A stretch of DNA of 64,000 nt from Terrabacter aerolatus (GTDB lineage Bacteria > Actinomycetota > Actinomycetes > Actinomycetales > Dermatophilaceae). Below the pieces are notes generated by a model. It saw nothing but the letters and a program-made list of their open reading frames with translations. It made no database searches and was not told the origin of the DNA. Shown here one piece after another: positions 14,468-20,919 of the stretch (position 1 is the stretch's first letter; each line of letters starts with the position of its first letter). A program made the translations under genes and the position numbers. The stretch covers positions 1 to 64,000 of the forward strand of contig NZ_BJYX01000016.1 in assembly GCF_007991735.1 (NCBI RefSeq), given 5' to 3'.

Positions 14468-15592
14468 TCACACCACCCCCGGCTCAGAGGACTCCCGCAC
14501 GGCTGCGAGGTACGCCTCACGCGCAGGTCCGTCCTCATGGGACTCGTGCAGCAGGTTCGGCTCGGCGTAGTCACGAGCGGGTCGGCTTCGAAAGGCGTCC
14601 CTGGCCAGGGCCACGACGCTGGCCAGCGTCGTGTCGCGAGTGTTGAGGAACGCGATCTGCCCGGAGAAGCGGGTGTCGGGGAGCAACGGGACGGGTCGTA
14701 GACGGTCCACGGCGCGAACGAGCCAGGTCCATGCCGAAGGGATGCCGACGCCCGTGGGGTCCGCACGGAGTGCCCGTGAACGGACCTCCGCGGCGGCGAG
14801 CGCCAGTTCCGTCCCGCCGAGGCGTGCCCGCGCCGCAAGGAGCTCGCGGTCCACCCCGGGCCGTCGCAACGCGAGGTCGAAATCCTTGGCCCAGACGAGG
14901 CGGTGCCCTCCGGAGTGCACGAGGTGGTAGGCGAGGTGGAGCACCGTGTCGACGGGGTCGAGGGTGCGAGCCGGAATTCCCTCCAGCCCGGCGGGAACCG
15001 ACCGTTCGAGAAGGGTTGCCGTGGGGAATCGAAAGGCGCGGCGCAGGTCTGGCTCGTTGACGACGTTCCAGTGCAGGTCGAGGCGGGTCCCGTGCGGAAG
15101 CCTGAGTGAGAGCTCGGCTCGCATCTGCCGCCGGATCAGGAGCCAGTTCCGGTCCACGAGTGTGGCCCCGGCCGCGATGAGCACCTTCAGCGCTTCACCG
15201 AGGCGCCGACCGTCGATGAGCAGGTCGAGGTCACCGTACTGGCGCATGTCGCTGCGGGGCCAGACGCGCTCCGAGAGAACGGGGCCCTTCAGCACCAGGG
15301 AGTCGATGCCGGACCGGTCGAGAACGGACGTCACCAGCCCCAGCTCTCCCAGGGTCATCATGTGCCGGCGCACCTGGTCGGAGTAGGCGAGCTGGAGTCG
15401 GCGAACGAGGGCGTCCGGCGCCGACGGGTCGTCGCGGACCCGGAGGTAGAGGGCCGGTGCGCAGCTGTTGAGCATCGCCGACAGGAGGAGGCGGTCTGGG
15501 TCGACGGCGGACCAGTCCACGGGCTTGTGGGCATGCGGCCTCTCCACGCTGTCGACCAGCAGCTGGACGATGCCCTGGTCCTGATCGCTCAT
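14468..15592 (-). CDS. Lasso-cluster nucleotidyltransferase-fold protein
   Basis: This 374-residue protein belongs to the nucleotidyltransferase family seen beside lasso-peptide and other RiPP genes (NTP_transf_5 type). The active-site region reads LVLKGPVLSERVWPRSDMRQYGDLDLLIDGR, with GDLDLLI at residues 120-126 holding the metal-binding Asp pair. A probable third acidic residue is in TRLDLHWN. The ATG at 15590-15592 follows GGCGGGAG. It is divergent from the PqqD-like B1 gene with a 148-bp shared promoter region. In kinase-containing lasso clusters such as that of pseudomycoidin, a nucleotidyltransferase homologue further modifies the phosphorylated C-terminus; the same is inferred here. 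Confidence 0.82.
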   Translation of the reverse strand: MSDQDQGIVQLLVDSVERPHAHKPVDWSAVDPDRLLLSAMLNSCAPALYLRVRDDPSAPDALVRRLQLAYSDQVRRHMMTLGELGLVTSVLDRSGIDSLVLKGPVLSERVWPRSDMRQYGDLDLLIDGRRLGEALKVLIAAGATLVDRNWLLIRRQMRAELSLRLPHGTRLDLHWNVVNEPDLRRAFRFPTATLLERSVPAGLEGIPARTLDPVDTVLHLAYHLVHSGGHRLVWAKDFDLALRRPGVDRELLAARARLGGTELALAAAEVRSRALRADPTGVGIPSAWTWLVRAVDRLRPVPLLPDTRFSGQIAFLNTRDTTLASVVALARDAFRSRPARDYAEPNLLHESHEDGPAREAYLAAVRESSEPGVV

Positions 15593-15606
15593 CTCCCGCC
15601 TCCCCG

Positions 15607-18971: not shown

Positions 18972-20919
18972 AGGCAGACGCCTGGAGCCGGAACAGTTCC
19001 GCGTACCGCCCACCCAGTTCGATGAGCTCCTCGTGGGACCCGGACTCGACGACCCGGCCCTCGTGGAGGACCACGATCCGGTCCGCCTCACGCACCGTCG
19101 ACATGCGGTGGGAGATGTAGAGCGCCGTGCGTCCGCGCAGCATCGACCGGAGCGACACGAAGAGCTCGTGTTCTGCCCTGGGATCGAGCGAGGCGGACGG
19201 CTCGTCGAGGATCACGAACGGCGCGTCCCGGTAGAGCGCGCGCGCGAGCGCCACTCGCTGCCACTGCCCCAGCGAGAGCTCCTGGCCACCGACGAAGCTC
19301 TTGCTGAGGATCGTGGCCAGGCCGTCGGGCAGCCGGCGAAGTGCCTCGTCGACGCCGACGGTGGCGGCGGCCGCCATGATGCGCTCGTCCGTCGCCGGTT
19401 CGTCTGCCCGACCGAGGGCGATGTTGTCCCCGGCCGGCAGCTGGTACCGGAGGAAGTCCTGGAAGATGACGGCCGTCTGCGTCAGCATGGACGCGCGGTC
19501 CAGGTCGCGAAGGTCGACCTCGTCGCGCACGACGCGTCCGGACGTCGCCGGGTAGAGACCGGCCACGACCTTCGCGAGGGTCGACTTTCCCGACCCGTTC
19601 TCTCCCACGAGGGCCACCACGTCGCCCTGCTTGATCTCCAGGGACACGCCACTCAGGGCGGGCTGGCGTGAGCCCGGGTACACGAAGCCGACGTCCTCGA
19701 TGCGTAGCGTCTGGAACGGCCCGTCCACCACGACGCGGTCCTCTGCAGCCGGCTGCACGGCGAGCGCGAGGAAGTGGTCCAGGTCATCGAGGAACAGACC
19801 CGACTCGAAGACGAGCTGGCTGCTCGAGGCGATCGTCGTCAGCTGCCCCGCCAGGAGTCGCACGGCGACAAGGGCGGCCCCCGCCTCGGCCAGCCCGACC
19901 TTTCCGACGCTGACCAGCCAGACGACGATGATGAGTGTCCCCGCAAGGACGATCGACGAGACGACGGAACTGACGAGCGAGAGCAGGCTCTTGCGCCGGA
20001 CATGCCGACGCAGGGCGTCGACGTAGTCTCCGTAGACCTGGTCGAAGCGATGGTGCAATTCCTCCGCGATGCCGTACGCACGGACCTCGTTCGCCTCCGT
20101 GCGCCCGACCTGAACGCCCATCAGGTACTCCCGCAACCGCAGCCTGGGCACCTGATCGACGGCAAAAGCGAACTCGAGGCGGCTCGAGCGCCGGGAGGCC
20201 AGCTGGACCGGTACGCCCGACAGCAGCAGCAGCGGGAGGAGAACCGGGTGGATCGAGGCGATGACCACGGCCAGGCCCACCGACCCGACGATGCTGCCGA
20301 TCAGCCCCACCAGCCCTTGGCAGACACTCAGTGGCCGAGTGACGGCGTTGAGCTGGACACGCTGGAGCCGGTCGTAGAACGACGGGGTCTCGAACGCGAG
20401 GAGGTCGACCTGGCTCGCGACCCGCAGGATGTCCGATCGGGTGCGGCGCGCCACGACCTCGCCCTGAAGTCGCTGGAGCTGCGGTAGGACGGCCGAGGAC
20501 ACACTGGACACAGCCATAGTGCCGGCCAGGAGCAGCACCGGGCCGACGGCCGCGGACACCGATCCCCCGGACTGGATCCCGAGGAGGGCGTCGAGCACCC
20601 ATTTGACAGCGAGTACCTGGACCGCGACGAGAGCTGCGGCGACGAGCTGGATGGCGGCGGTGACGAGGAAGAGCCCACGGTCGGCGCTCCACGCGAGCCT
20701 CAGGCTGCGCGTGACGATGGACACGAGCCGACCCCAGGTCCGTCGCTGACGCACGGCCTCGATCTGCAGTTCCATGTGGTCGAGCAGCGGCTCTCCCCGC
20801 ATCCTCGTCGAGGCGCGGTCGTTCGGCTCCCTGCCCTCGTCGGCATCGGCGTCGCGCGGTCCCCCGCGGCGACCGGAGACCCGTTCGGCGGACGCCTCAG
20901 GCACCTCAGTCCCCAGCAC
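18949..20919 (-). CDS. ABC exporter with fused membrane and ATPase domains
   Basis: The protein has up to 656 residues and is probably the lasso-peptide D transporter. A hydrophilic N-terminus of about 75 residues precedes six membrane helices (residues 80-380). The nucleotide-binding domain has Walker A VGENGSGKSTLAK, the Q-loop FQDFLRYQ, signature LSLGQWQRVALARAL (LSLGQ in place of LSGGQ), Walker B FVILDEPSASLD and the H-loop SHRMS. The GTG at 20917-20919 overlaps the upstream glycosyltransferase stop; internal ATGs (codons 40 and 49) are possible starts. The 3' end overlaps the convergent kinase gene. It could instead export a glycolipid, given the glycosyltransferase in the same transcription unit. 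Confidence 0.85.
   Translation of the reverse strand: MLGTEVPEASAERVSGRRGGPRDADADEGREPNDRASTRMRGEPLLDHMELQIEAVRQRRTWGRLVSIVTRSLRLAWSADRGLFLVTAAIQLVAAALVAVQVLAVKWVLDALLGIQSGGSVSAAVGPVLLLAGTMAVSSVSSAVLPQLQRLQGEVVARRTRSDILRVASQVDLLAFETPSFYDRLQRVQLNAVTRPLSVCQGLVGLIGSIVGSVGLAVVIASIHPVLLPLLLLSGVPVQLASRRSSRLEFAFAVDQVPRLRLREYLMGVQVGRTEANEVRAYGIAEELHHRFDQVYGDYVDALRRHVRRKSLLSLVSSVVSSIVLAGTLIIVVWLVSVGKVGLAEAGAALVAVRLLAGQLTTIASSSQLVFESGLFLDDLDHFLALAVQPAAEDRVVVDGPFQTLRIEDVGFVYPGSRQPALSGVSLEIKQGDVVALVGENGSGKSTLAKVVAGLYPATSGRVVRDEVDLRDLDRASMLTQTAVIFQDFLRYQLPAGDNIALGRADEPATDERIMAAAATVGVDEALRRLPDGLATILSKSFVGGQELSLGQWQRVALARALYRDAPFVILDEPSASLDPRAEHELFVSLRSMLRGRTALYISHRMSTVREADRIVVLHEGRVVESGSHEELIELGGRYAELFRLQASAFIEPTRG

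Follow-up and report, generated by a model that had tools for sequence, protein, structure and literature searches.

The main finding of this work is the identification of a kinase-linked lasso peptide gene cluster in Terrabacter aerolatus, located at positions 14,468 to 20,919 of the 64,000-nucleotide stretch that was analysed (contig NZ_BJYX01000016.1 of assembly GCF_007991735.1, positions 1 to 64,000; hereafter the window). The cluster holds genes for a lasso precursor (A), a PqqD-like recognition element (RRE) for ribosomally synthesized and post-translationally modified peptides (RiPPs; B1), a compact cyclase (C), a leader peptidase (B2), a kinase (K), a nucleotidyltransferase-like protein (N) and an ATP-binding cassette (ABC) exporter (D). 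We hypothesize that its product is a class II lasso peptide (without cysteine) with a nine-residue ring between Gly1 and Asp9. B1 would bind the YxxPxL part of the leader and present the precursor, and K would phosphorylate the terminal residue, Ser23, probably while the precursor is still linear. After cleavage by B2 behind Met(-1), C would adenylate Asp9 and join it to Gly1, so that the ring encloses the tail. N would then probably act on the phosphate, most likely with the addition of a hexose, the reaction reported for pseudomycoidin, and the product would be exported by D. To this pathway as a whole, in which all of the chemistry is modelled on known pathways, we give a probability of roughly 0.78; what was observed directly are the genes, the conservation of their catalytic residues and the link between K and a C-terminal serine. 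An earlier note on this DNA had pointed out the precursor and the genes clustered around it, and the C-terminal serine as the probable kinase target, the compact cyclase, the genomic island and the polysaccharide neighbourhood go beyond it.

The earlier note had proposed a 43-codon gene at 16125-16256, a leader fitting YxxPxLxxxGxxxxxTx and a ring-closing spacing of Gly1 and Asp9, and all three proposals held. The gene lies on the + strand, encodes the 43-residue lasso precursor A (MENYESPSLTDVGSVVDLTMGDLFQPGQDALSQIPIIGGLFGS; leader 1-20, core 21-43) and is preceded by a good ribosome-binding site, GGAGGAGGT, read directly at 16108..16116 (+) and ending 8 bases before the ATG. The leader agrees with the motif at every fixed position and is recognised by the curated lasso-leader model NCBIfam NF033521 (26.2 bits, cut-off 19), so the description of the precursor as unannotated-looking may not hold. 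The predicted core, GDLFQPGQDALSQIPIIGGLFGS (16185..16253, +), has 23 residues, with Gly1 and Asp9 as the ring positions, an acid within core positions 7-9, Ser23 as the predicted phosphorylation site and the leader Thr at -2. The ring spacing is supported by the survey described below, since Asp is kept at core position 9 in 45 of its 49 kinase-linked precursors; core position 1 of these, assigned by an assumed Thr(-2) rule, is Ala in 24, Gly in 12, Glu in 5, Gln in 3, Asp in 2, and Asn, Thr and Ser in 1 each. A chance open reading frame (ORF) as the explanation of precursor A was ruled out by 150 dinucleotide shuffles of the window, which gave 0.08 motif ORFs of similar core length per 64 kb, and 0.0067 when an acid at core 7-9 was added, against 1 observed in both cases. 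Neither precursor A nor cyclase C had a match on the plasmid records, 72,556 of which were searched for the precursor. From the sequence, a new lasso peptide is credibly predicted for this precursor and cluster. If the Thr(-2) rule holds, Glu appears to be the first core residue in Isoptericola and Krasilnikoviella (loci L014-L019), and Gln that in L010 and in one core of L020; to our knowledge, Glu and Gln are unusual as ring N-termini.

The second line of evidence concerns the kinase. K (17979..18971, +, 330 residues) is a putative HprK/PEPCK-fold peptide kinase. The earlier note had already called it a kinase, which its predicted fold and catalytic residues bear out, whereas sequence models score it weakly. 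In sequence, K reached 21.8 bits with Hpr_kinase_C (PF07475), under the cut-off of 33.3, and 26.3 bits with HprK_rel_A (cut-off 200), and against solved structures it gave weak matches only, with HprK/P 1ko7 at E 0.98. Its AlphaFold2 model (mean predicted local distance difference test score, pLDDT, 90.7) matched PEPCK 6asm (VIA Z 16.1, root-mean-square deviation, rmsd, 4.3, 265 residues aligned) and HprK/P 1kkl_B (Foldseek E 3.1e-05), and HprK/P took six of the Foldseek ranks 41-50; the absence of HprK from the 50 best matches of a second structure aligner is uninformative. Across 27 sequences, His126, Lys147 and Asp165 never vary and Asp164 hardly does, so K carries the lasso-kinase residues, namely the His, the P-loop Lys-Ser and the Asp-Asp. 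This His, Lys, Asp, Asp set is reported to be essential in lasso kinases (PMC9266682; motif also in PMC10368454; these papers, like the others given below by PMC number, are cited for excerpts). Therefore, fold and catalytic residues support K as an HprK-type kinase, at the level of a structural model, despite the weak sequence score. In two Acidimicrobiaceae loci (L012, L013) the kinase P-loop reads GKT instead of GKS.

The C-terminal serine follows the kinase closely. It ends 43 of 49 kinase-linked precursors against 3 of 52 kinase-free ones (Fisher p 2.4e-18, kinship ignored). The counts comprise 101 distinct precursors with the strict leader motif near a cyclase, after identical precursors and one 85-residue false ORF were dropped, and the 49 include the window's own precursor and loci found via its cyclase. 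In the part sampled via B2 the proportion was 27/28 against the same 3/52, after clustering at 60% identity it was 15/18 against 3/33 (p 1.6e-7), and at 45% identity 7/8 against 1/19. Four strongly K-positive loci (L137, L138, L163, L184) stayed uncounted under the strict rule, and Ser-ending candidates are present at L163 and L184. The three kinase-free cases ending in Ser are one precursor at L123 and two at L187, in whose genome a kinase lies just beyond the fetched stretch. Only Ser12 and Ser23 carry a hydroxyl group in the window core; its position 3 is not a Ser, Thr or Tyr. Because kinase-linked precursors mostly end in serine and only these two serines are available, Ser23 is predicted as the likely phosphorylation site of K.

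Several observations weigh against this pathway. Six of the 49 kinase-linked precursors do not end in Ser, namely four of Acidimicrobiaceae ending Ser-Phe, one ending Thr-Ser-Gly (L154) and one at L189, which probably belongs to a neighbouring cluster. The sample has no tree correction and was partly found by similarity to the window cyclase, and 59 of the 126 surveyed B2 loci gave no precursor under the strict rule and are uncounted. In addition, BsfK (PMC10368454) and LppK (PMC13381572) are reported to phosphorylate Ser3 of the core, which also speaks for an alternative in which a lasso is made and K targets another residue, such as Ser12 in the tail, the C-terminal Ser serving another purpose. 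However, it is the last residue that tracks K across loci, in a comparison that covered the last position only, and the window core offers no hydroxyl residue at position 3; we regard this alternative as improbable and retain Ser23 as the predicted site. The Ser-Phe ends come from L011-L013. Besides, the loci L144, L152, L154 and L162 form another kinase-linked group, in which the cyclases are long, the kinases more distant and 3 of 4 precursors end in Ser, possibly an independent case of the same link.

The third element is the cyclase. C (16358..17548, +, 396 residues) is matched by PF00733 (Asn_synthase) alone, with 52.3 bits against a cut-off of 21, and its 12.5 bits with NCBIfam NF033535 (cut-off 525) speak against an assignment as lasso cyclase. 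Among 31 sequences, the motif SGGRDSS, the GD of GDE and K331 are invariant, and the E nearly so. The model of C (pLDDT 92.5) aligned with TsnB9 (Z 18.0, rmsd 4.2, 321 residues aligned, chain residues 149-607) and with human ASNS, carbapenam and beta-lactam synthetases and AsnB (Z 14.6-17.1); in sequence, C gave weak matches only against solved structures. In the twelve matches of the synthetase group, the alignment, for which the ranges give the first and last aligned residues only, starts at chain residue 126-176 in ten and at 57 and 11 in two. Since the structural matches mostly align from residue 126-176 on, the model is read as a bare synthetase domain, and C appears to lack the usual N-terminal domain. 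The second structure aligner showed no lasso cyclase for C, which is uninformative; according to the excerpt of a 2026 review, no lasso cyclase crystal structure exists (PMC13352647).

Cyclases of both sizes occur in the survey. In 87 precursor-tied cyclase genes (one genome twice, L008 being the same as L019), the residues before SGGxDS number at most 105 (36 genes) or at least 230 (51 genes). A kinase of K type is in reach of 34 of the 36 short cyclases (35 counting the L187 kinase) and of 5 of the 51 long ones, among which L011 was counted though really short, its frame running up through the kinase gene. The exception among short cyclases, L099, may be a frameshift. The N-terminal region of the long cyclases, which we take to be glutaminase-like, remained unnamed in Pfam scans of five of them; among the 113 flanking proteins scanned for K-negative loci, GATase_4 and GATase_6 had 3 matches each. 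No report of a compact lasso cyclase was found in the open-licence literature, which is weak evidence.

These features raise the question of whether the compact C closes a ring at all, or whether the product is linear and phosphorylated, C doing something else or decaying. C lacks the N-terminal region of the long lasso cyclases, and linear phosphorylated RiPPs with a kinase, a nucleoside triphosphate (NTP) transferase, an RRE and an exporter exist, the linear polyphosphorylated peptides (LPPs; PMC13381572). The core set of the latter has no cyclase and another leader peptidase, whereas the window has C and B2; besides, C keeps SGGxDS and the Lys in the 31 sequences, and the acceptor Asp9 is kept as described above. 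We consider a linear product very unlikely, the least probable of the alternatives, and keep ring closure by C as the predicted step. If active, the compact cyclase would be of use in studying and engineering lasso closure, as a smaller scaffold whose fold is predicted with confidence. Among relatives, precursors and cyclases of the compact family are each present twice in L020-L023 (Amycolatopsis, Prauserella), together with a single kinase and a single exporter, and in most loci of family f107 (L165-L182) a pair of Ser-ending precursors is followed by one compact cyclase, B2 and a kinase.

The hexose step depends on N (14468..15592, -, 374 residues), a candidate hexose-phosphate transferase matched by PF14907 (NTP_transf_5; 129.8 bits, E 1.7e-37), with K102, G103, R117, D121 and D123 invariant in an alignment of 17. 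Its start at 15592 is more likely than one at 15742; this start codon, like that of the cyclase at 16358, was chosen by us. Among K-positive loci, 21 of 36 have a homologue of N; among K-negative ones, 0 of 49 do. These locus counts drop L008, L024 (same as L184) and L188, and the 36 include L137 and L138, whose kinases (about 206-209 bits) are of a different type. Set against a role in the pathway are the 15 of 36 K-positive loci with no match to N within the fetched stretches, and the report that an NTP transferase belonging to a related system, LppN, had no effect in heterologous expression (excerpt of PMC13381572). Nevertheless, by analogy with pseudomycoidin, N may add a hexose.

Pfam and NCBIfam also bore out the identities that the earlier note had assigned to B1, the cyclase, B2, the nucleotidyltransferase and the ABC exporter. 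B1 (15741..15992, +, 83 residues) is a PqqD-like RRE (PF05402, 62.4 bits; NF033530 52.8 bits, under the cut-off of 70), with Y27, N31 and D68 conserved in 87, 85 and 89 of 89 aligned proteins. B2 (17545..17982, +, 145 residues) is the leader peptidase (NF033537 50.9 bits, cut-off 33; Transglut_core3 45.4 bits) with the Cys-His-Asp set Cys87 (26/27), His119 (24/25) and Asp130 (23/24), counted in those of 35 aligned sequences that have a letter at the column. D (18949..20919, -, 656 residues, start codon uncertain) is an ABC exporter (PF00005, 103 bits), the best NCBIfam matches of which are MsbA-like, every one under its cut-off; a relative of D adjoins the cluster in L006, L008, L010 and L014-L024. 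N and D lie on the strand opposite to B1-A-C-B2-K. The end of C overlaps B2 by four bases, as does the end of B2 with K, which suggests that B1-A-C-B2-K constitute one operon.

A cluster can also be silent or non-functional in its native strain, that is, genes without a product. No sigma-70 consensus promoter was found in 15400-19100, lasso clusters are often silent in culture, and the cyclase is missing from 8 of 9 genomes of the genus, hence dispensable. On the other hand, the open frames are intact, the catalytic residues kept, the genes overlapping and the ribosome-binding site good, and the promoter scan carries little weight because only 0.1 hits are expected in shuffles. Silence is thus unlikely, although it is the alternative to which we give the most room, and we continue to favour a functional cluster.

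The distribution of the genes is sparse. At E 1e-20, cyclase C occurs in 5 of 147 relatives, the window genome included, and K in exactly the same 5; at E 1e-40, C occurs in 3 of 396 genomes drawn evenly from the phylum, again with that of the window. The leader peptidase model NF033537 is found in 99 of 394 genomes of the class. The earlier note had looked to close relatives for the leader motif, and this stood in part, since related clusters carry leader-bearing precursors, whereas within the genus the cyclase was found in 0 of 8 other genomes (one 74% complete). A scan of named genomes with patterns from one cyclase gave 20 loci, in six Isoptericola, Krasilnikoviella flava, three Amycolatopsis, Prauserella muralis, three Acidimicrobiaceae metagenome-assembled genomes (MAGs), one Actinomycetota MAG and one Pseudonocardia MAG, plus four distant matches. 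The stretches surveyed were searched with profiles of the window proteins. The genome paper of Isoptericola sp. AK164 mentions a lasso cluster briefly (PMC10425560); no kinase-linked lasso cluster of Actinomycetota was found in open-licence titles and abstract openings, a search by which full texts are little covered. At L159, L160, L166 and L028, precursors have ends that contain Pro, and no kinase of K type is in reach; L028 is a distant cyclase match in Mycobacterium sp. PO1, and its precursor resembles one of L166.

The lasso cluster belongs to an island of about 28 kb (14208..42589), between mfd and the gene at 42590, which also carries polysaccharide genes. The same site is empty in 6 of the 7 congeners fetched, with the flanks (14.2 and 42.6 kb) 125-298 bp apart; in the seventh (L200) one island side matched only. 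The tRNAs at 1452 and 48812 lie away from the island ends. Pfam scans of mechanical ORFs called the polysaccharide genes at 20906..39794, namely a family 4 glycosyltransferase (GT4), four GT2, a Wzx flippase, methyltransferases, an NTP_transferase, an epimerase, a Wzy-like protein and two more GT4. The island also encodes an amidohydrolase and two beta-helix proteins. The latter (39932-42505) lie close to the island end, and a repeat search of each end separately found a 12-base tandem repeat in three copies at 42444-42479.

This neighbourhood recurs in other loci. A relative of any of thirteen of the island proteins is present within the fetched stretch in 13 of 36 K-positive against 1 of 49 K-negative loci (p 3.1e-05, kinship ignored), and in 2 of 11 loci with an intermediate kinase (80-200 bits); L008, L024 and L188 are dropped from these counts too. 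The commonest families among 127 K-positive flanking genes (of 202, 11 redundant loci and 11 further genes being left out) are glycosyltransferases and sugar epimerases/dehydratases, followed by sulfate-activation GTPases and hydrolases, while no glycosyltransferase is among the 25 commonest families of 113 K-negative ones (of 321, from 20 of 49 loci drawn at random with 125 genes, 12 left out). In the K-positive tally, sulfate activation is represented by CysN-like and CysD-like genes, with 4 flanking genes each. The polysaccharide neighbourhood of paeninodins and LPPs in Bacilli is already described, with its function unassigned in the excerpt (PMC13381572), and the Bacillota link was published in 2026. 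Judging from the open-licence literature, the link itself is known; what appears to be new is that it recurs in Actinomycetota, together with different leaders and compact cyclases. Since the cluster sits among polysaccharide genes, a surface or biofilm role is suggested rather than a diffusible antibiotic. The dispersed actinobacterial set, with its kinase/last-residue link, polysaccharide neighbours and Tyr-type leaders, suggests that the surface-polymer link is not a Bacillota oddity, and its presence in many genera makes the function testable there. We know of no function for phosphorylated lasso peptides. It is a speculative and rather doubtful idea that these loci are an actinobacterial branch of phospho- or phosphoglycosyl-lasso peptides with a stripped-down cyclase, in which the Ser-phosphate(-hexose) end is a handle attaching the lasso to, or organising, the surface polymer made by the neighbours.

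Phosphorylated lasso peptides have been described, in the excerpts cited, from Bacillota, Proteobacteria and Bradymonadales, and paeninodin and pseudomycoidin are precedents for modification of a C-terminal Ser (PMC9266682, PMC8498205). The paeninodin type (PadeK, ThcoK, SyanK) shares with the window an HprK-type kinase beside the lasso genes, a Ser end and discrete B1 and B2, and in Bacilli it often lies near capsular polysaccharide loci, as the window cluster lies by polysaccharide genes (PMC13381572). However, it belongs to another phylum, and paeninodin leaders have a near-invariant Trp (WxxP; PMC13381572). Because the window leader is YxxP, not WxxP, its cluster would stand outside the paeninodin clade proper, and it may by analogy work like paeninodin; the compact cyclase is a feature of the window, paeninodin cyclase length being outside the comparison. 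Pseudomycoidin (PsmK, PsmN) resembles the window in having a kinase and a nucleotidyltransferase in the cluster and a C-terminal Ser, a likeness by gene set, not by sequence comparison, in a different phylum. The Bsf cluster of Bradymonas sediminis (BsfK, BsfN) likewise has A, B1, B2, C, D, K and N genes, but BsfA ends in Asp, is phosphorylated at Ser3 and has Ile at leader position -2 (PMC10368454). The LPP systems share the RRE, the HprK-like kinase, the NTP transferase, an MsbA-like exporter and the polysaccharide neighbourhood, and differ in their signal-peptidase-like leader peptidase and the missing cyclase (PMC13381572); a linear system of this kind was rejected for the window on the presence of the cyclase and B2. 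Finally, the 49 kinase-free actinobacterial lasso loci have the leader motif, an Asn-synthetase-like C and B2, and B1 in most, as in the window, but their cyclases are long (at least 230 residues before SGGxDS, except L099 and L187), none has N in reach and 49 of their 52 precursors lack the Ser end. As judged from these sequences, the kinase-linked family is set apart from the surveyed kinase-free lasso clusters of Actinomycetota.

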